IMG/VR virus record: IMGVR_UViG_3300035703_000006
Span: 62,001 to 126,000 of that record
DNA: 64,000 nt
Source of the DNA: a virus
Strand: one strand, 5' to 3'
Shown: positions 2 to 51,261 of the stretch, piece after piece
Layout: every line of letters starts with the position of its first letter
Position numbering within the stretch: the first letter of the stretch is position 1
Translations under genes and position numbers: made by a program
The notes under the pieces: model-generated
Databases searched by the model: none
Told to the model about the DNA's origin: nothing
The model's input: only the letters and a program-made list of their open reading frames with translations

Positions 2-481
2 AATTTTATTCAAAAAGGTCGTGCTCTTGGTGAGCTTGGTCACCCAGATGGGCCAACTTTAAATCTTGATAGAGTTTCTCATAAAATCACTATGCTTGAA
101 AAAAATGGTGATAATTTTATAGGAAAAGCAAAAATTCTTGACACTCCAATGGGAAAAATTGCATCTTCACTTCTTGGAGAAGGTGTAATGCTTGGTGTTT
201 CTTCTCGTGGTGTTGGTTCTCTAATTCCAACTAATGAAGGATATTCTTTAGTTGGCGAAGATTTTATGCTTGCCACTGCAGCAGATATTGTTGCAGATCC
301 CTCTGCCCCTGACGCATTTGTAAATGGAATTATGGAAGGAAAGGAGTGGATTTATGATTCAAATAAAAAATCTTGGGTTGCAGAATCAATTAAAAATATT
401 ATTGAAAAAGATGTAAGGCAAAGACAATTGACTGAACAGAGAAGGTTGCAACATTTTGAAAAGTTTTTAGGTATGCTGTAA
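2..481 (+). CDS. 21: Prohead core protease gp21 (5' partial)
   Basis: The reading frame is open from base 2, so the N-terminus lies outside the window; 159 residues are visible. The T4 gp21 family is a serine protease that matures the prohead by cutting scaffold, capsid and internal proteins after L/I-x-E. Family-like features are the GHPDGPTLNLDRVSH segment (residues 14-28 of the fragment) and the GVSSRGVG segment near the likely nucleophile serine. It is directly followed by gp22 and gp23, the standard T4-like order. The assignment rests on motif plus synteny. Confidence 0.9.
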   Translation, partial: NFIQKGRALGELGHPDGPTLNLDRVSHKITMLEKNGDNFIGKAKILDTPMGKIASSLLGEGVMLGVSSRGVGSLIPTNEGYSLVGEDFMLATAADIVADPSAPDAFVNGIMEGKEWIYDSNKKSWVAESIKNIIEKDVRQRQLTEQRRLQHFEKFLGML

Positions 482-552: not shown

Positions 553-1779
553 ATGTCCCGTGGTAAAAACTTACAAGAAATGGAATCAGACACAAAACAA
601 TCTAAAACTGCTGTAAATGCCGGTGCAAAGGCAGCAGAACCAATGCCAAAGTTAACCACAGGAATTCCTGATGGACAAACCGGCAGTTGGGAAGATCTTG
701 GTGGACCAACACCAGAGAATTATCGTTCCGATGACGATTCATCAAAATTAAAAGATCCTTCTACAACTCTAAAGCAAGTAAAAGATGTTGTAACCAAAGG
801 TGCCAAGGCAGCTGAAGGCATGAAGAAAATGGCTTCACCAGTCAAAGAATCTTCAGAGGAAGATGAAGATGAAGAATTAGTTGAAGATGAATATGAGACA
901 GAAGAAGGTGAAGAAGAACTAGAAGAAGCCCATAAAAAAGAATCTAAAAAGGGCGAAGAAGAAAACGAAGACGAAGAAGAAGACGAAGAAGAAGATGATG
1001 AGGAGGAGGAGGATGAAAAAGAAAAAGCAATGAAAGAAGCTTTTGCAGAAATTGAAGAAGAAATTGAAGAAGATGTTTCTGCACTTCTTTCCGGTGAAGA
1101 TCTTTCTGAAGATTTTAAAGTAAAAGCAAAAACTGTTTTTGAAGCAGCATTGAATGCTAGAACTCAGCAGATCGAAGAAGCAATTCAATATCACTATGAG
1201 CAAAGACTCGTAGAGGAAATTGAATTAGTCAAAGAAGAATTGACAGATAGACTTGATTCCTATCTTGAATATGTTTCAGATGAATGGATTCAAGAAAATG
1301 CTCTTGCTATTGAGCAAGGCATTAAAACTGAAATGACTGAGAGTTTTCTCTCAGGAATGAAAAATCTTTTTGAAGAACATTATGTATCAATCCCTGAAGA
1401 AAAATATAATGTAATTGAGAGTATGGTAGATAAACTTGATGAAATGGAGACTAAACTCAACGAGCAAATCGAAAGAAATGTTGCTCTAAATAAGAGATTA
1501 GCAGAATCAGTTACTGATGTAATTTTTGCTGATGTCACTGAGGGTCTTGCTCTTTCTCAGAAAGACAAACTCGCTTCTCTTGCCGAAAATGTTGAGTTTG
1601 ATAGTGAAGAAGACTATCGTGAGAAACTAGTAACTCTCAGGGAATCTTATTTCCCAAGATATGCTGGTACTCAACTAGATAACTCAGATTATATCGCAGA
1701 AGGTATGGAGTATCATCAAGAGGTTTCAGGGTCAATGGCCCATTATCTTGATGCACTTGGAAGAGTTTCTAAGAAGTGA
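553..1779 (+). CDS. 22: Prohead core scaffold protein gp22
   Basis: 408 residues. The internal scaffold on which the gp23 shell assembles; in T4 it is later degraded by gp21. Residues about 95-160 are an extreme Glu/Asp/Lys-rich tract. The following block (about 175-340) is predicted helical coiled coil and contains the family-like LSEDFKVKAKTVFEAA segment. Flanked by gp21 and gp23. The start follows the SD-like GGAGAG at 542-547. Confidence 0.92.
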   Translation: MSRGKNLQEMESDTKQSKTAVNAGAKAAEPMPKLTTGIPDGQTGSWEDLGGPTPENYRSDDDSSKLKDPSTTLKQVKDVVTKGAKAAEGMKKMASPVKESSEEDEDEELVEDEYETEEGEEELEEAHKKESKKGEEENEDEEEDEEEDDEEEEDEKEKAMKEAFAEIEEEIEEDVSALLSGEDLSEDFKVKAKTVFEAALNARTQQIEEAIQYHYEQRLVEEIELVKEELTDRLDSYLEYVSDEWIQENALAIEQGIKTEMTESFLSGMKNLFEEHYVSIPEEKYNVIESMVDKLDEMETKLNEQIERNVALNKRLAESVTDVIFADVTEGLALSQKDKLASLAENVEFDSEEDYREKLVTLRESYFPRYAGTQLDNSDYIAEGMEYHQEVSGSMAHYLDALGRVSKK

Positions 1780-1828: not shown

Positions 1829-3262
1829 ATGCAAATGTTCAACGCAGAGCATCTGCAGGAGAAGTGGTCACCACTCCTTGATTATCAGGGTCTAGACCCA
1901 ATCAAAGATTCACATCGCAGAATGGTAACTGCAGTTCTCCTGGAGAATCAAGAAAAATTCCTTCGTGAAGAAAGATCATTTCTTTACGAAACTGGTGCTC
2001 CAACAAGCACAACAGGTTCAACATCCAATACTGCTGGTTTCTCCGGTGGTGCCGTAGCAGGTGGTCCAGTAGCAGGTTTCGACCCTGTTCTGATCTCTCT
2101 GATTCGTCGTTCAATGCCTAACCTGGTCGCATATGACCTCGCAGGTGTTCAACCAATGAATGGTCCTACAGGACTCATCTTCGCAATGCGTTCACGTTAT
2201 ACCAACCAGTCTGGTTCTGAAGCATTCTTTGATGAAGTTGATACTCAGTTCTCTGGTAGAAAGGGTAATCAATCTCAGTATGCAGTCAATCCCGTTGTTG
2301 AAGCTAACGTAGGTTTCGGTACTACTGCTGCTCAAACAGGAAACAATCCTGGTCTTCTAAGTGCTGGTGGTGGACAGCAAGATTATAACGTTGGTGGTGG
2401 TATGTCCACTGCTGATGCAGAAATTCTTGGATCTGATTCTGGTGCAGCATTTAACGAAATGGCATTCTCAATCGAGAAAGTCACCGTTACTGCAAAGTCA
2501 AGAGCACTGAAAGCCGAGTATTCACTTGAGCTTGCACAAGACCTTAAGGCAATTCACGGATTGAATGCTGAGGCAGAACTTGCTAACATTCTCTCAACTG
2601 AAATCCTCGCAGAAATCAATAGAGAAGTTATCAGAACTATCTACAAGACTGCAGAAACTGGTGCTCAGCATAACGTTGCTACCGCAGGTACTTTTGACCT
2701 CGACATCGACTCCAATGGTCGTTGGTCGGTTGAGAAGTTCAAGGGTCTGATCTTCCAGATCGAAAGAGATGCAAACGCAATTGCTCAGCGTACTCGTAGA
2801 GGAAAGGGCAACATCATTATGTGCTCATCTGATGTTGCTTCTGCACTTTCAATGGCTGGTCTCCTTGACTACACCCCTGCACTTAATGCAAATCTTAACG
2901 TAGATGATACTGGCAATACATTTGCTGGTGTTCTCAACGGTAAGTATCGTGTATATATTGACCCATATTCAGGTGGTTCAAACCCAAGTGCTTCTGGTGG
3001 TCAGTATTATGTTGTTGGTTATAAGGGTTCTTCCCCTTATGACGCAGGACTCTTCTACTGCCCATACGTTCCTCTCCAAATGGTTCGTGCCGTTGGTGAG
3101 AACACCTTCCAGCCTAAGATCGGATTCAAGACCCGTTATGGTCTTGTTGCTAATCCATTTGCTGAAGGTAAGTCATCTTCTGCACCTGAATCCACTCTGG
3201 GTCGTATTCAAACTAATAGCAACCGCTACTACAGAAGAGTATTGGTTAAGAATCTTATGTGA
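1829..3262 (+). CDS. 23: Major capsid protein gp23
   Basis: 477 residues; forms the hexamers of the head. T4 gp23 landmarks are present: PNLVAYDLAGVQPMNGPTG near residue 95, the KAEYSLELAQDLKAIHG block near 230, and a C-terminus with GFKTRYGLVANPFAEG. The N-terminal region is expected to be removed by gp21; the best site by alignment to T4 is after FLYE (residues 51-54). Codon use is GC-richer and more optimised than in the neighbours, as usual for a very abundant protein. Followed by a strong terminator. Confidence 0.98.
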   Translation: MQMFNAEHLQEKWSPLLDYQGLDPIKDSHRRMVTAVLLENQEKFLREERSFLYETGAPTSTTGSTSNTAGFSGGAVAGGPVAGFDPVLISLIRRSMPNLVAYDLAGVQPMNGPTGLIFAMRSRYTNQSGSEAFFDEVDTQFSGRKGNQSQYAVNPVVEANVGFGTTAAQTGNNPGLLSAGGGQQDYNVGGGMSTADAEILGSDSGAAFNEMAFSIEKVTVTAKSRALKAEYSLELAQDLKAIHGLNAEAELANILSTEILAEINREVIRTIYKTAETGAQHNVATAGTFDLDIDSNGRWSVEKFKGLIFQIERDANAIAQRTRRGKGNIIMCSSDVASALSMAGLLDYTPALNANLNVDDTGNTFAGVLNGKYRVYIDPYSGGSNPSASGGQYYVVGYKGSSPYDAGLFYCPYVPLQMVRAVGENTFQPKIGFKTRYGLVANPFAEGKSSSAPESTLGRIQTNSNRYYRRVLVKNLM

Positions 3263-20911: not shown

Positions 20912-21679
20912 ATGTCCGCACAAGCAGCTGCAGCAGGAAAGAATTATGAAACTGCACTTAGAAATAAATTGAATGCAGTATTCAAAAATATTCCAAGGAC
21001 TGCTGGATATTCATCTGGTCCTGATATAACCATACCTTCAGTGAATAATCCTGGCCAATCTTTGTTGGTAGAAGCAAAAACAACAACAGGTGCTGATTTT
21101 GGACAAAAAGCAATAACATTTAATGGAAGTTCTTGGGTTCCATCAAGTAAAAGAGATGAAGTCGCAGATATATCTGCTTTATATAATTATCTTTTTAACA
21201 CTTATTCTATCGGGAGTTTAATAGCAGATGCCTGGGACCTTCCGAATAAAAATATAACTGCAGAAGATTTACAAGAAGCAATCAATGTAAAACAACTTTC
21301 TAAACTTTTATATTATGAAAAAATACTTAAGCAGGCAACGGGGAGGGCAAACCCATTTCCTACAAAAACATTAGTTCAGGGTCCAAAAATTTCCGATAGT
21401 ATCATTAATTATTATAATTCTAAAGGAATTTATTATATTCAAATTAGAAATAGTGGATTTTATGTTATGGGTGAAGACGTAAAAAATTTGAGAGGTCTTT
21501 TGGGAATAAACATACCTTCCTTTAATCCCACTACTGCTGAATTAGTTTTGAGAGGAAAATCAAGTTTATCCCAACGTACATATAGTCCAACTTTAACCTT
21601 TAAGTCTTCTGGTCTTCCAGCAAGTCAATATAGTTTAGATAATGGCACTTTAATTAATTTACTACATAGTAAATTATAA
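20912..21679 (+). CDS. PD-(D/E)XK nuclease-like protein
   Basis: 255 residues. The N-terminal 60 residues fit the restriction-endonuclease fold: E13 in an opening helix, D38 in GPDITIP, then LLVEAK with E54 and K56 (D ... E-x-K). The remainder (about 150-255) is unassigned. The gene starts immediately after a terminator, so its expression probably comes from the loop-embedded late motif. Holliday-junction, DNA-trimming or packaging roles are all possible. Confidence 0.6.
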   Translation: MSAQAAAAGKNYETALRNKLNAVFKNIPRTAGYSSGPDITIPSVNNPGQSLLVEAKTTTGADFGQKAITFNGSSWVPSSKRDEVADISALYNYLFNTYSIGSLIADAWDLPNKNITAEDLQEAINVKQLSKLLYYEKILKQATGRANPFPTKTLVQGPKISDSIINYYNSKGIYYIQIRNSGFYVMGEDVKNLRGLLGINIPSFNPTTAELVLRGKSSLSQRTYSPTLTFKSSGLPASQYSLDNGTLINLLHSKL

Positions 21680-21682
21680 ATA
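21675..21682 (+). promoter_or_regulatory. Late promoter TATAAATA
   Basis: Exact octamer overlapping the stop codon of the preceding gene, 19 nt before the ATG at 21702. Confidence 0.8.
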
Positions 21683-21701: not shown

Positions 21702-22901
21702 ATGAAGAGTTTTGCTCAATTTGTAAAAGAAGCAGTAGAAACCCTTGCATCTACCGAAGCAAAAAATCGTGGTCTTGTTGGAAACGGGCACGGAGACTGG
21801 TATGATAAGCAAGGAAATTTTGTTGCGAAAACGGTTAAGGGAAAATTAAAGTTTTTTGGTCAGGGTGATACAAAATCACAAGATGGAGTTCCTGGAGAAG
21901 AAGTAAAGCAACAAAGTCGTTCTGCACAAACACAAACACAACCAACTACGACAGAACAACCACCAGCAGAACAAACTGGTAATGGAATTGTGATGGTTTT
22001 GGGAAGATTCAATCCTCCATCTAAAAATCACCAACAATTATTAAAGGCTGGATTTAATAATGCAAAAAGAATGGGATATGAGTATAGAATATATCCAAGT
22101 AGAATACAGGATGGACAAGCAAATCCATTAAGTCCAAAGACAAAGATTTCTCTTATGAGGATGATGTTTAAGGAATATTCTGATTATATTGTTGATAGTG
22201 AAGAAACAAGAACTATTTTTGATGCATTAGTTTCAATTTATAATGATGGGTATACTGACGTTACTATTGTAGTTGGTCAAGATAGATTGGGTGAGTTTCA
22301 AAGTTTAGTTCATAAGGGTGAGGGACAAGATTATCAATTTAATAATATTCAAGTAATATCTGCTGGTGTTAAGGATCCTGATGGTGAAGTTGAAGACCCA
22401 GGATCTTCTGCAAAGATGAGAACAGCAGCAGCAATAGGAGATTACGCAACTTTTGCTCAGGGAATTCCTTCTGGAGTCAAGCAAGTAGATAAAGAAAAGA
22501 TATTTAATATGGTATCAAAATCTATGAATGTTACTGAGGACACTGAAGTTTGGAGAATTGTTCCAGAACTTGATTATGATGGAATGAGATGGAATTATAA
22601 AAATAATGGTCTTTTTGAAGTTGGTACATTTGTTGAGAGTTTGAGTAGTGGTCTTGTTGGGAAAGTATTCCGTAGAGGTTCTAATTATTTGATTTGTGTA
22701 ACAGAAGACGGAAAAATGTTTAAGAATTGGTTGAAGGATGTTCGTGAAGTTTATGAGGTTGGGACTTGTAAATACAGAAAACACGCACAAGAAATAACAC
22801 CAGAAGAACCTGTAGTTTCTTTTACTGATGTTGAAATTAAGGAAACTATGCCAAAGAAAAAGATAAATATCAATAGGAAAAATTTATCTACAAAAAGATG
22901 A
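21702..22901 (+). CDS. Nucleotidyltransferase-fold protein with capsid-targeting-like leader
   Basis: 399 residues. Residues 1-11 (MKSFAQFVKEA) closely resemble the T4 internal-protein leader MKTYQEFIAEA, which gp21 removes after residue 10. Residues 95-245 look like an NMN/phosphopantetheine adenylyltransferase-type Rossmann domain: GRFNPPSKNH (101-110, Ser in place of the first His), VGQDRLGEF (191-199) and GSSAKMR (234-240). A C-terminal SH3-like segment includes GKMFKNWLKDVREV. Behind a perfect late promoter. Packaging and injection are inferred; the nucleotide substrate is unknown. Confidence 0.75.
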   Translation: MKSFAQFVKEAVETLASTEAKNRGLVGNGHGDWYDKQGNFVAKTVKGKLKFFGQGDTKSQDGVPGEEVKQQSRSAQTQTQPTTTEQPPAEQTGNGIVMVLGRFNPPSKNHQQLLKAGFNNAKRMGYEYRIYPSRIQDGQANPLSPKTKISLMRMMFKEYSDYIVDSEETRTIFDALVSIYNDGYTDVTIVVGQDRLGEFQSLVHKGEGQDYQFNNIQVISAGVKDPDGEVEDPGSSAKMRTAAAIGDYATFAQGIPSGVKQVDKEKIFNMVSKSMNVTEDTEVWRIVPELDYDGMRWNYKNNGLFEVGTFVESLSSGLVGKVFRRGSNYLICVTEDGKMFKNWLKDVREVYEVGTCKYRKHAQEITPEEPVVSFTDVEIKETMPKKKININRKNLSTKR

Positions 22902-24478
22902 AGGATTGGACAGAGATTATTTCTGAAGCAAGAGATAGAAACAAAGAAAAGGAAGAAAGAAAGAGAAGACTTAAAATTGCTAAAACAGCAATGAAAGGCT
23001 CTGCTGCTCTGGGTAAGAGTAAAACTGGAAAAAAAGAAGATAAAAAAGATTCCAGATATTTGGATTATCTTGAACGTCGTCAGGCAACAAGAGAGCAAGA
23101 AATTGCAAAACAAAGAGAACAGGAGGAGATAAATAAAAAACAAAAATTAATAAGATCAAAAGAAAAAAATTTAGAAAAATCAAAAGAAAGAATTAAATCA
23201 GCACTTGGTGGGGTAAATACCGATACTATTGGTGCCGAGGAAGGTGGAGCAACTGCCACAATGAAGGCACTTGGCAATTTAGGTTCTCTTGCTGGTGGAT
23301 TGGCAAAAGCAGCAATTCATACTCCTGGATATCTTAAAGCAAAACGAGATCTCAAAACGGCAAAAGAAACTGAAGTTACTTCAAATCAACCAGAAAAAGC
23401 AAGAGAAAGAAAAAAACCAGGAAGACCAAAAAGACCTGGAACACCTTCATCTTCTCAACAATCTCAATCCCCATCATCAAATACAAATCAAAAGAAACTC
23501 GTACCTGCAACTAAAAGACTTGTTCCTGCAACTAAAAGACTTCCACCATCTGGTGGTGTTCCTGAAGGTTTACGAGGACCAAAGGCAATGACTTTAGGGC
23601 AAAGAGCAAGACAAAATCCAAAAATTAGAGCAGGTTTGATTTCGCAAAGAATGAATACTGAAGAGTTTTCAAATTGGAGACAAGAATTTACAGAAGAATT
23701 TTTATTTGAGATTGACGAATTAAAAAACGATAAAAATAAAAAGACCGATAAAAAGTCTAAAGTTGTTGATGTGATGAAAGGAACTAATTCAAAAATTGTT
23801 GAGATCAATCCAAACATTTCTGAAGACCATAAAGAAATTGCAAGTGGTCAGAAAAAAGATGATGAGGGATATATGGCAAATGTTGAATTGGATCAAATGG
23901 AAAGAGCAATCAAAGCACTTCGTAAAAAAATAAAAAAAGCGGATATGCAGATGCCTGCTTGGGTACAATCAAAAATTACAAGAGCCGCAGATTATATTGA
24001 TACTGCTTCTGAATATTTGCAAAGTGATGAAAGTGTTGATGAGTCCTATGAGAGTGAAACTTTTCGTCAACATTCAAGATCTGAATTAAATTTGCCAAGT
24101 AGTTCTTCTTCATCTACTACAAAGTCTTTTTTGAAAAGAATGAAAGAATTGAATATGAATCCAGGTAAACCAAAAAAGAAAAAGAAAAAGAAAGATATGA
24201 GTGAAGCAGTTGATAAAAATGCAATGAAGTGCAACAAACCAAAAGCACAAGCACACGGATCTGGTGAGACTGGAAAATCTCACATTGTAAAGGCTTGTGA
24301 AGGTGGAACTGAAAAAATTATTCGTTTTGGTCAACTTGGTGTAAAAGGTTCACCAAAAAAGGAAGGTGAGTCTAAAGCATATGCAAGTCGTCGTCATAGA
24401 TTTCAAACAAGACACGCAAAGAATATATCAAAAGGTAAAATGTCCGCTGCTTATTGGGCAAATAAAGTTAAGTGGTGA
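22898..24478 (+). CDS. Basic, probably head-packaged protein with capsid-targeting-like leader
   Basis: 526 residues, strongly Lys/Arg-rich. Residues 1-11 (MKDWTEIISEA) fit the capsid-targeting pattern with a consensus gp21 site I-S-E after residue 10. Residues 1-130 are charged coiled coil, about 165-230 is Pro/Ser/Gln-rich with a duplicated LVPATKR unit, about 250-390 is helical, and the C-terminal 85 residues form a separate conserved-looking domain (IVKACEGGTEKIIRFGQLG ... RHAKNISKGKMSAAYWANK). ATGA overlap with 21702. DNA binding inside the head is inference. Confidence 0.7.
   Translation: MKDWTEIISEARDRNKEKEERKRRLKIAKTAMKGSAALGKSKTGKKEDKKDSRYLDYLERRQATREQEIAKQREQEEINKKQKLIRSKEKNLEKSKERIKSALGGVNTDTIGAEEGGATATMKALGNLGSLAGGLAKAAIHTPGYLKAKRDLKTAKETEVTSNQPEKARERKKPGRPKRPGTPSSSQQSQSPSSNTNQKKLVPATKRLVPATKRLPPSGGVPEGLRGPKAMTLGQRARQNPKIRAGLISQRMNTEEFSNWRQEFTEEFLFEIDELKNDKNKKTDKKSKVVDVMKGTNSKIVEINPNISEDHKEIASGQKKDDEGYMANVELDQMERAIKALRKKIKKADMQMPAWVQSKITRAADYIDTASEYLQSDESVDESYESETFRQHSRSELNLPSSSSSSTTKSFLKRMKELNMNPGKPKKKKKKKDMSEAVDKNAMKCNKPKAQAHGSGETGKSHIVKACEGGTEKIIRFGQLGVKGSPKKEGESKAYASRRHRFQTRHAKNISKGKMSAAYWANKVKW
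23498..23539 (+). repeat. Tandem 21-nt repeat encoding LVPATKR twice
   Basis: Two consecutive near-identical units (23498-23518 and 23519-23539) within the linker of the preceding CDS. Confidence 0.85.
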
Positions 24479-33179: not shown

Positions 33180-33206
33180 AGTATATAAAAGTACTTTTTG
33201 TGTAGA

Positions 33207-34862
33207 ATGAAAAAGCAAGACTTGGATGCTTTAGCAAGTTTATATGAGAGTGTTTATTCATCTATAGAGAGTGGTGAATATTTAGTTGAAGGTCCTTATG
33301 ATGCTGCTAATGTGAGGAGAGCACAACAATCGCAGCAAGGAAGAGATTCATTAAGAAACATAGGTGGATTTGCTGGATTAGCACAAGCAGCAAGAGCAGC
33401 TGGTGATACTGCTGGTGCTAAAAGATACATGCAAAAATCTCAACAAATTGGAGATCAAAGAAGAGCATCTGTTGCAAGAGCAAATGCTGAACAGAGAGCA
33501 TCTTCTGCTGCAAGAAGACAACAGGATATTGCTGCTTATCAACAAGCATTTGGGAGAAAACCAAATTCAAAACCAATTCAACCATCTGCATTAGCAGGTA
33601 GAGTTAGTAGCACCAGCGATATTGCAGCATTAAGAAGAGGACAAGAACAAGCAAGACAAAATCAACTGGCAGCAGCATCAAGAAAGACAGGATCGGGGGG
33701 TAATACAATACCAGTAGCAGCACCAGGATCAGCAACTTTTGCATCAACATCACAAAAACCAGTGGTTAGAAGTGTTATTGAAAAACCTCCATCAAAACCA
33801 CCAAAATCACCAACACCAGCAATTGGAAAACTTGGGAGCACCACATTTGAAAGAAGAACTCCAACTTCTGCTGAATTAAAAGCAGCACAAGCAGAACGTG
33901 CAAAACAAGAAGCATCAGGGCAAGATACTAGTTCTGTAAAGAATGCAGAAAAGGCACTTCAAGCAGCACAGAGGACAAATCTTCCTACAACTGGACCATC
34001 TCCTGCAATACCTGATTTGAAGAGTGTAAATGCAGATTTAGCAAAATTCACTCCAAGAGATATGAATAAATATCCAATAAAAACACCAAATCCTATAAAT
34101 AATACAAAACCTTCACAAACAATGAAAAGTTCTTACGAATGGCCTTCTGCAAAAACAATTAGAGATATTGCAGATGCTTATTCTTCAATCTATGAAGCAA
34201 AGAAAAAAGTAGACCAGGACCAAGATGGTGATAAGGATAAAGACTTTGCGGATGTAATGATTGCAAGAATGATGGCATCTGGAATGTCAAGAGCAGAAGC
34301 AATCGCAGCAGTTAGAAATAAAGAATATAATGAAGAGTATGAATTAGATGAAGCAACCAGAATGAGAAAGGAACTTGGTAAAGAAGGTGAAACCAGAGTT
34401 CGTGGAGAACTTGCTGCACGTTCAAGAGCATATCAACGTTCTGGTAGTATAGATAGAACCATTGCTGGAGCAGAAGCAGCAGCAGATAGAATTACTCCAA
34501 GAGGACGTAATGAAAGTCCAGGTGAGTATAAACAGAGAATGCAAAAACGTTCTAGAACTTTAAGAGGACTTGCAGCATCGAGAAGAGGTTCGGTAAGAGA
34601 TAAACCTAGAGCAGGCATGAGAGGGTATGCTGCTAAGGTAGAAGGTCCAGATAAGGAGTTACAGACAGCAAGACAAAGAGCAATGTCAGCAGGAACTCTA
34701 ACTCCAAAAGAGAAGAAACAATTAGGTGAAGAGTATCAAATTTATGAAATTGTAGCATCATATCTTTTAGAAAACAACTTTGCAGAAACAATTAATGATG
34801 CAAATGTAATCATTGAAAATATGAGTGAAGTTTGGTTAGAAGAAATCTTAAATAATAATTGA
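33207..34862 (+). CDS. Large Ala/Gln/Arg-rich probable virion protein
   Basis: 551 residues from ATG 33207; a TTG at 33198 is less likely. The N-terminal 30 residues end EYLVE-G, a consensus gp21 site (L26-V-E28). Residues about 40-310 are low-complexity Ala/Gln/Arg/Pro. An EF-hand-like acidic loop DQDQDGDKDKDF follows near 340. The C-terminal 42 residues (IYEIVASYLLENNFAETIND ... MSEVWLEEIL) repeat the helical module of the previous protein. Function unknown; head or injected protein is inferred. Confidence 0.65.
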   Translation: MKKQDLDALASLYESVYSSIESGEYLVEGPYDAANVRRAQQSQQGRDSLRNIGGFAGLAQAARAAGDTAGAKRYMQKSQQIGDQRRASVARANAEQRASSAARRQQDIAAYQQAFGRKPNSKPIQPSALAGRVSSTSDIAALRRGQEQARQNQLAAASRKTGSGGNTIPVAAPGSATFASTSQKPVVRSVIEKPPSKPPKSPTPAIGKLGSTTFERRTPTSAELKAAQAERAKQEASGQDTSSVKNAEKALQAAQRTNLPTTGPSPAIPDLKSVNADLAKFTPRDMNKYPIKTPNPINNTKPSQTMKSSYEWPSAKTIRDIADAYSSIYEAKKKVDQDQDGDKDKDFADVMIARMMASGMSRAEAIAAVRNKEYNEEYELDEATRMRKELGKEGETRVRGELAARSRAYQRSGSIDRTIAGAEAAADRITPRGRNESPGEYKQRMQKRSRTLRGLAASRRGSVRDKPRAGMRGYAAKVEGPDKELQTARQRAMSAGTLTPKEKKQLGEEYQIYEIVASYLLENNFAETINDANVIIENMSEVWLEEILNNN

Positions 34863-50724: not shown

Positions 50725-51261
50725 ATGATTGATGAAAAATGCTCTGGTTATGGTATAGTCGATTTAGTTAAAAAACTAAATCAACAAAATATAATTGGAC
50801 TTGAAATAGGATGTGCTGAAGGAAATACAACAAAACATCTATTGTCAAATATTTCAAATTTAAAGTTATATGGAATTGATCCGTATACTGAATATATTGA
50901 TTGGAATGGTTATGATTTAAATAGTGATCATATGGATAGAACTACTAAAAAATTTGAAGAAAATATTAAAGATTACAAAAATAGACACCATCTATATAAA
51001 AATTTTTCCGATGATGTAGTTGACAAATTTGAAAATAATAGTTTGGACTTTATTTTTATTGATGGTCTTCATACTTATGAACAAGTATTAAAAGATTGTA
51101 GAAATTATTATTCTAAAGTTAAAAGTGGGGGAATATTCTCTGGACATGATTATACTGCAATTGAAGCAGTTAATAGAGCAGTAGTTGAATTTGCTACTGA
51201 GGTTGAAATTCCAGAAATTTTTGATGTAGAAGTTGATGTTTGGTATTGGATTAAACCGTGA
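50725..51261 (+). CDS. SAM-dependent methyltransferase (Methyltransf_24-like)
   Basis: 178 residues. LEIGCAEGNTTKHLL (about 25-39), YGIDPYTEY, FIFIDGLHTYEQVLKD (about 110-125) and GGIFSGHDY, a complete metal-dependent methyltransferase order. Substrate unknown. Confidence 0.85.
   Translation: MIDEKCSGYGIVDLVKKLNQQNIIGLEIGCAEGNTTKHLLSNISNLKLYGIDPYTEYIDWNGYDLNSDHMDRTTKKFEENIKDYKNRHHLYKNFSDDVVDKFENNSLDFIFIDGLHTYEQVLKDCRNYYSKVKSGGIFSGHDYTAIEAVNRAVVEFATEVEIPEIFDVEVDVWYWIKP

Follow-up and report, generated by a model that had tools for sequence, protein, structure and literature searches.

Here we describe two adjacent cyanophage genes whose predicted products open with leaders that we interpret, with a probability of roughly 0.84, as capsid-targeting sequences akin to those of the T4 internal proteins, cleaved by the prohead protease gp21. 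The observations behind this interpretation are the leader itself, its conservation at functional positions, its repeated occurrence on basic proteins unrelated to one another, and its fit with the virion proteomes of phages that carry orthologues; binding to the prohead core, a cut between Glu10 and Ala11, and injection into the host are inferred by analogy and remain putative.

In phage T4, mutagenesis of IPIII assigned residues 4 and 7 of the leader to targeting and residues 8 and 10 to processing (PMC9026906), and T4 leaders suffice to package and deliver foreign proteins (PMC9026906, PMC3012670). IPIII and the other two internal proteins of T4 all act as inhibitors of restriction systems (PMC12373910). 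By analogy, the two cyanophage proteins would be made late in infection, their leader helix would bind the gp22-based prohead core, and the proteins would be enclosed in the prohead, where gp21 would cut after Glu10 to give mature forms starting at Ala11. In this mature form they would remain with the DNA in the head and be carried into the next host along with it.

The locus and its leader motif

The window analyzed here is a stretch of 64,000 nucleotides (positions 62001-126000) of a 247 kb cyanophage record, G000, which is related to the freshwater phage S-SRM01 and to the Kyanoviridae. An earlier note had proposed two leader-bearing genes in it, and both open reading frames and both leaders lie exactly where that note had placed them (Table 1), the start codon of the second gene overlapping the stop of the first (ATGA). 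Both genes had been assigned to a late promoter. A T4-type late-promoter-like site, TATAAATA, does precede the first gene, but the second has none of its own and, given the overlap, would ride on the transcript of the first. Sites of this type number 11 on the plus strand of the window and one on the minus strand, with 4.5 expected per strand, and another of them lies at position 506, ahead of gp22. A fixed late promoter ahead of leader genes in general could not be demonstrated: among the matches listed from the database scan described below, TATAAATA precedes 7 of 85 leader open reading frames (ORFs) and 62 of 624 background ORFs. A shorter form of the site, [CT]TAAATA, which stands before 31/85 leader ORFs and 51/624 background ORFs among the same matches, is suggestive only. 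As for gp21, said by the note to be encoded in the window, its C-terminal 159 residues are, but the remainder of the gene, including its start, lies upstream. The gp22 scaffold is the predicted prohead-core partner of the leader.

Table 1. Features of the locus (window coordinates)
Feature	Position	Strand	Remarks
gp21 prohead protease, C-terminal part	2..481	+	similarity to S-CREM2 gp143; predicted processing enzyme
gp22 scaffold	553..1779	+	synteny and similarity to S-CREM2 gp144 and S-SCSM1 ORF41
gp23 major capsid protein	1829..3262	+	T4-type gp23 also found in related records
T4-type late-promoter-like site TATAAATA	21675..21682	+	upstream of first gene; consensus match only
First cargo ORF	21702..22901	+	399 aa; phrog_395, E 9.8e-77
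Leader MKSFAQFVKE	21702..21731	+	predicted capsid-targeting sequence; predicted cut E10/A11, after nt 21731
GHG segment KNRGLVGNGHGDWYDKQGNFVAKTVKGKLKFFG	21762..21860	+	residues 21-53; most conserved part of first protein
Nucleotidyltransferase domain	21978..22511	+	residues about 93-270
C-terminal small beta domain	22569..22754	+	residues about 290-351; phrog_22379/phrog_4808
Second cargo ORF	22898..24478	+	526 aa; very basic, pI 10.0
Leader MKDWTEIISE	22898..22927	+	predicted capsid-targeting sequence; predicted cut E10/A11, after nt 22927
C-terminal 94 aa domain of second protein	24194..24475	+	residues 433-526; phrog_7595

The likeness to the T4 IPII/IPIII leader MKTYQEFIAE-A, on which the note had relied, holds at the targeting (4, 7) and processing (8, 10) positions: the first protein has F4 and F7 followed by VKE-A, which spans the processing positions 8, 10 and 11, and the second has W4 and I7 followed by ISE-A. 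The pattern M..[FY]..[FY]h.EA, scanned at the DNA level with the reversed pattern as a control, gave four forward matches in the source record, none on the reverse strand and none with the reversed control. A variant allowing W4/I7 also picks position 84898 of the record, equivalent to 22898 of the window, and removal of the final Ala gains one match, MKTFKEFIEES at 218964. The record carries at least six leader genes, all on the plus strand (50875, 83702, 84898, 216333, 216788 and 218964), with mature parts that are mutually unrelated; one of the leaders, MKTYQEFISEA, is a single residue off T4 MKTYQEFIAEA.

T4 itself, the positive control, yielded exactly two matches, IPIII (66415) and a neighbouring gene with an identical leader, and KVP40 and RB49 yielded one each. 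The pattern had no match in six non-T4 phages (phiKZ, SPO1, P1, P-SSP7, S-CBS2 and Felix O1), and the reversed control pattern none in all 20 records searched. A second match in S-CREM2 (132446) lies inside nrdA and is probably due to chance. Among 622 distinct ORFs of relatives, chosen irrespective of leader presence, the motif stands at residue 4 in 19, a figure that includes two additional copies of the first protein; other offsets had a mean of 0.012 matches each, with zero at the neighbouring ones. Because the strand and reversed controls are zero and the motif is concentrated at residue 4 in this way, the resemblance is far beyond chance.

Several further genes carry leaders or leader-like stretches. 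A leader-gene cluster at 216333-219332 of the source record (L086:9334-12333) encodes proteins of 152 aa (pI 10.4), 440 aa (pI 10.0) and 122 aa (pI 9.6), and the gene at 50875 (L082/L087), adjoining a neck/tail-sheath-stabiliser-like gene, encodes a leader protein of 399 aa and pI 9.6. Near 215500-216300 (L085:232-1026), a 264 aa basic protein with an HNH region resembling HHITPTHYSAK contains an internal leader-like KKTFEEFVSEA at residues about 73-83, and its true start may be downstream of the call. A different recurrent N-terminus, approximately MxxxDLxxLSEAYxxVY and including a SEA-type site, occurs at 33198-34862 of the window, in L086:12528-13358 and in S-SCSM1 ORF89, one carrier having been detected in S-SCSM1 virions. 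S-SCSM1 ORF93 (L232:41626-41835), a basic virion protein of 69 aa, has a leader-like C-terminus, KKKRTFKEFLEYIE. The mature parts of leader ORFs in L100:3736-4529, L141:1085-1591, L110 and L157 open with YHGT/HYT, reminiscent of ADP-ribosyltransferase-like domains; those tested had no Pfam match.

Conservation and architecture of the cargo

The first cargo consists of the leader, a GHG segment, a nucleotidyltransferase domain of the HIGH superfamily (NMNAT/cytidylyltransferase-like), and a C-terminal small beta domain. Lack of leader conservation in homologues had been named in the earlier note as a result that would refute its claim; for this protein the leader is present at 80/80 orthologue loci in IMG/VR, many of them near-identical. 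Across 23 diverse orthologues, down to about 36% identity, M1, F7, E10 and A11 are invariant, K2 and F4 are more than 90% conserved, residue 8 is always I, V, L or F, and positions 3, 5, 6 and 9 are variable. The conserved positions are thus the residues that T4 mutagenesis assigns to targeting and processing.

The nucleotidyltransferase fold suggested for this cargo is upheld by structure prediction: the AlphaFold2 model (mean pLDDT 69, core mostly 73-92) is Rossmann-like, and NadD and PPAT are the top Foldseek matches of its middle domain (E 5.6e-6, probability 1.00). No match to the window protein itself was found in Pfam, nor any in a PDB sequence search with the alignment of its orthologues. 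The (H/T)xGH active-site motif is degenerate in the window clade, where it reads SKNH (residues 107-110 of the window protein), and intact in other cyanophage orthologues as TxGH or HxGH; since SKNH replaces the motif, enzymatic activity is uncertain here. The pI of the protein is only 8.2, and its small beta domain exists in S-PM2 as a separate 91 aa protein.

Downstream of the leader, the GHG segment (consensus GHGDWYD...VAKTVxGKLKF) has a mean column entropy of 0.66 among first-protein orthologues, compared with 1.40 for the catalytic domain. With the window protein as query, the segment is found in S-CREM2 ORF14 (E 4e-8, apparently in two copies), S-CREM2 ORF12 (E 6e-6) and S-CRM01 g128 (E 7e-4), and it is common to nucleotidyltransferase, kinase-like and nuclease-like proteins. 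In the loci L077-L081 the nucleotidyltransferase core is reduced, and leader, GHG segment and C-terminal domain are retained. Because it occurs on different cargo and is kept in these core-reduced proteins, the segment is a module that moves with the leader from one cargo to another; the idea that it also helps in packaging or unfolding is guesswork.

The very basic nature claimed for the second cargo is borne out by its computed pI (Table 1). The protein is lysine-rich, of low complexity, and variable in length among relatives. Most of the family retain its leader, in the form M[KR]xWxE[IV]I[SKQ]EA or MTYWEKYI[SF]E[EAS], but it is lost or changed in L020, L021, L037 and L041. The W4 and I7 of this leader differ from the T4 residues, which counts against a T4-type reading of it. 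The phrog_7595 domain at the C-terminus stands alone in marine podoviruses, for example SIO1 and KBS-S-2A, a spread independent of E. coli.

A scan of IMG/VR with the canonical leader pattern hit at least 119 stretches, and the 80 loci examined gave 88 ORFs. Among the matches listed, leader ORFs of at least 100 aa (n = 73) have a median pI of 10.1, against 5.8 in 624 neighbours (P = 1e-27). Seventy representatives from these listed matches span 48 PHROG families, with Pfam assignments to cytidylyltransferase (5), DUF5661 (3), double-psi beta-barrel/RlpA (3), zeta-toxin/P-loop kinase (2), GNAT (2), and others; the PHROG family "internal head protein" was matched by four, as expected with T4-type enterophages among the matches listed. 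A T4-type gp23 or DNA polymerase was seen on 7 of 15 large leader-bearing contigs. Restriction of the leader to T4-like phages is not proven, because the other eight are fragments with neither gene.

One alternative accepts that the leaders bind the core and are cut by gp21, and assigns the cargo to head assembly or to condensation of DNA inside the capsid, not to injected effectors. T4 gp67 and gp68 and the basic internal proteins are precedents for such a role. It would suit a second cargo that is so lysine-rich, simple in composition and variable in length, and also the observation that most canonical-leader ORFs, among the matches listed, are basic. The same leader, however, stands on a nucleotidyltransferase, a SAM lyase, a kinase, GNAT acetyltransferases and zeta-toxin-like kinases, and the T4 leader proteins of known role work in the host cell (PMC12373910, PMC9391042), so that we hold this alternative to be unlikely.

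Virion proteomes of related phages

Packaging, which the earlier note had expected of both proteins, finds support for the first only, in published virion mass spectrometry of its orthologues (PMC3037559, PMC9602691, PMC10665884). The cytidylyltransferase T4-GC190, which in S-SM1 has the leader MKKFSAFLNEA, was detected in S-SM1 virions and not found in S-PM2 virions (Sullivan et al., PMC3037559). The S-PM2 orthologue has neither leader nor GHG segment, and its non-detection may stem from lower sensitivity, the S-PM2 study having missed true structural proteins too. Orthologues with leaders are virion proteins also in S-SCSM1 (ORF91, MKSFLQFLKEA; PMC9602691) and S-CREM2 (ORF154, MKNFSSFLTEA; PMC10665884). 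S-CBWM1, for which a virion NMNAT has been cited, was not retained as support, since no orthologue of the window protein could be detected in it.

Five of the six leader ORFs of S-CREM2 are virion proteins, compared with 52/219 coding sequences overall (Fisher P = 0.003), and the association among non-structural coding sequences has P = 1.4e-4; the motif was relaxed partly after inspection of the data, and both P values are indicative only. The virion proteins concerned are the SAM lyase ORF6, ORF13, the kinase-like ORF14, ORF136 and ORF154, and several leaders in this phage lack Ala at position 11. S-CREM2 ORF12 (L088:7704-10313, minus strand), likewise detected in virions, has the motif at residues 18-25, a GHG segment and an HNH-like stretch; its annotation as "Cas9" or CRISPR nuclease was not adopted, no Pfam domain being found, and we term it nuclease-like only. 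S-SCSM1 offers too few cases to replicate the mass-spectrometric association with any power, as it has only two leader coding sequences, ORF91, which was detected, and ORF30 (106 aa), which was not. The authors of the virion studies allow for contamination by abundant proteins (PMC9602691, PMC10665884).

Such carry-over, not excludable according to those authors, leaves some room for the possibility that the leader, a conserved N-terminal helix, does something else, such as binding a common chaperone or a component of replication or of the tail, and plays no part in capsid targeting, its likeness to T4 being due to descent or convergence and its detection in virions to contamination or tail association. 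The motif is short, and S-SCSM1 offers just one detected and one undetected case. Yet MKTYQEFISEA in the source record is nearly identical to the T4 leader, the conserved residues are exactly those mapped in T4, the six non-T4 phages lack the motif, and mass spectrometry agrees with the leader in S-SM1, S-SCSM1, S-CREM2 and S-PM2; we consider this explanation highly improbable. Chance likeness of two N-termini, conceivable insofar as only about five positions are constrained, is ruled out by a positional enrichment of several hundred-fold or more and by reversed controls at zero, and the leader is kept in orthologues with as little as about 35% identity.

Known delivery systems and significance

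Delivery by a capsid-targeting leader, as we propose it here, resembles the system of T4 IPI, IPII and IPIII (Mullaney and Black; PMC9026906, PMC3012670) in a ten-residue N-terminal leader with an aromatic residue 4, Phe7, a hydrophobic residue 8 and Glu10 followed by Ala, in an encoded gp21-type protease, and in basic cargo that varies between genes and is apparently expressed from late genes. It differs in that the host is a cyanobacterium, the cargo is far larger, with enzymes among it, the leader is often separated from the enzyme by a conserved GHG segment, and cut and injection are inferred. The virion cytidylyltransferase/NMNAT proteins (T4-GC190, S-SCSM1 ORF91 and S-CREM2 ORF154) are orthologous to the first cargo, carry the same leader and were found in purified virions, whereas the window clade has SKNH instead of (H/T)xGH, and the published accounts give no targeting signal. 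The view that the cargo was undescribed is only partly right, the nucleotidyltransferase having been known from those virion reports, which noted no targeting signal. A description of the leader in cyanophages was not found in the open-licence PMC literature, subscription papers and preprints being outside the scope of that search.

In phage P1, too, an injected protein, DarB (PMC9024508), is loaded into the head by a signal at its N-terminus, but the sequence of that signal is unrelated, P1 has no separate scaffold, and the Dar proteins share no leader. T4 Alt, head-packaged ADP-ribosyltransferases and NAD-related phage proteins (PMC9503650) are comparable as enzymes delivered with DNA and linked to NAD biochemistry; their packaging, in contrast, has been inferred from gene context or fusion to a head protein, and NadV, the usual partner of phage NadM, was sought for NAD+ salvage and not found in the source record. 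The first cargo might, as a guess, restore NAD+ instantly on entry, opposing NAD-depleting defences, or modify a nucleotide-containing host target, and the second may be a DNA-binding protein or one directed at host defences.

For T4-like cyanophages at large, we lean towards a general delivery address, a T4-type leader often accompanied by a GHG segment, that is placed on a large and varied set of enzymes, so that a phage injects a battery of effectors with its DNA. The enzymes so addressed would, with the same rather modest confidence, include nucleotidyltransferase, SAM lyase, protein-kinase-like, HNH-like and RlpA-like proteins, GNAT acetyltransferases and zeta-toxin-like kinases, and it seems somewhat probable that the address alone lets the injected set be read from sequence.

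Cyanophage proteomes have reported metabolic enzymes in virions without deciding between cargo and contamination, a question that a leader matching that of T4 at each residue would settle. With such a leader, candidate injected proteins of highly abundant marine and freshwater phages could be listed from sequence, and the leader would serve as a ready fusion tag to load proteins into cyanophage heads. It would also extend a system of enteric phages to the phages of cyanobacteria, whose host defences, possible targets of such proteins, are little known.
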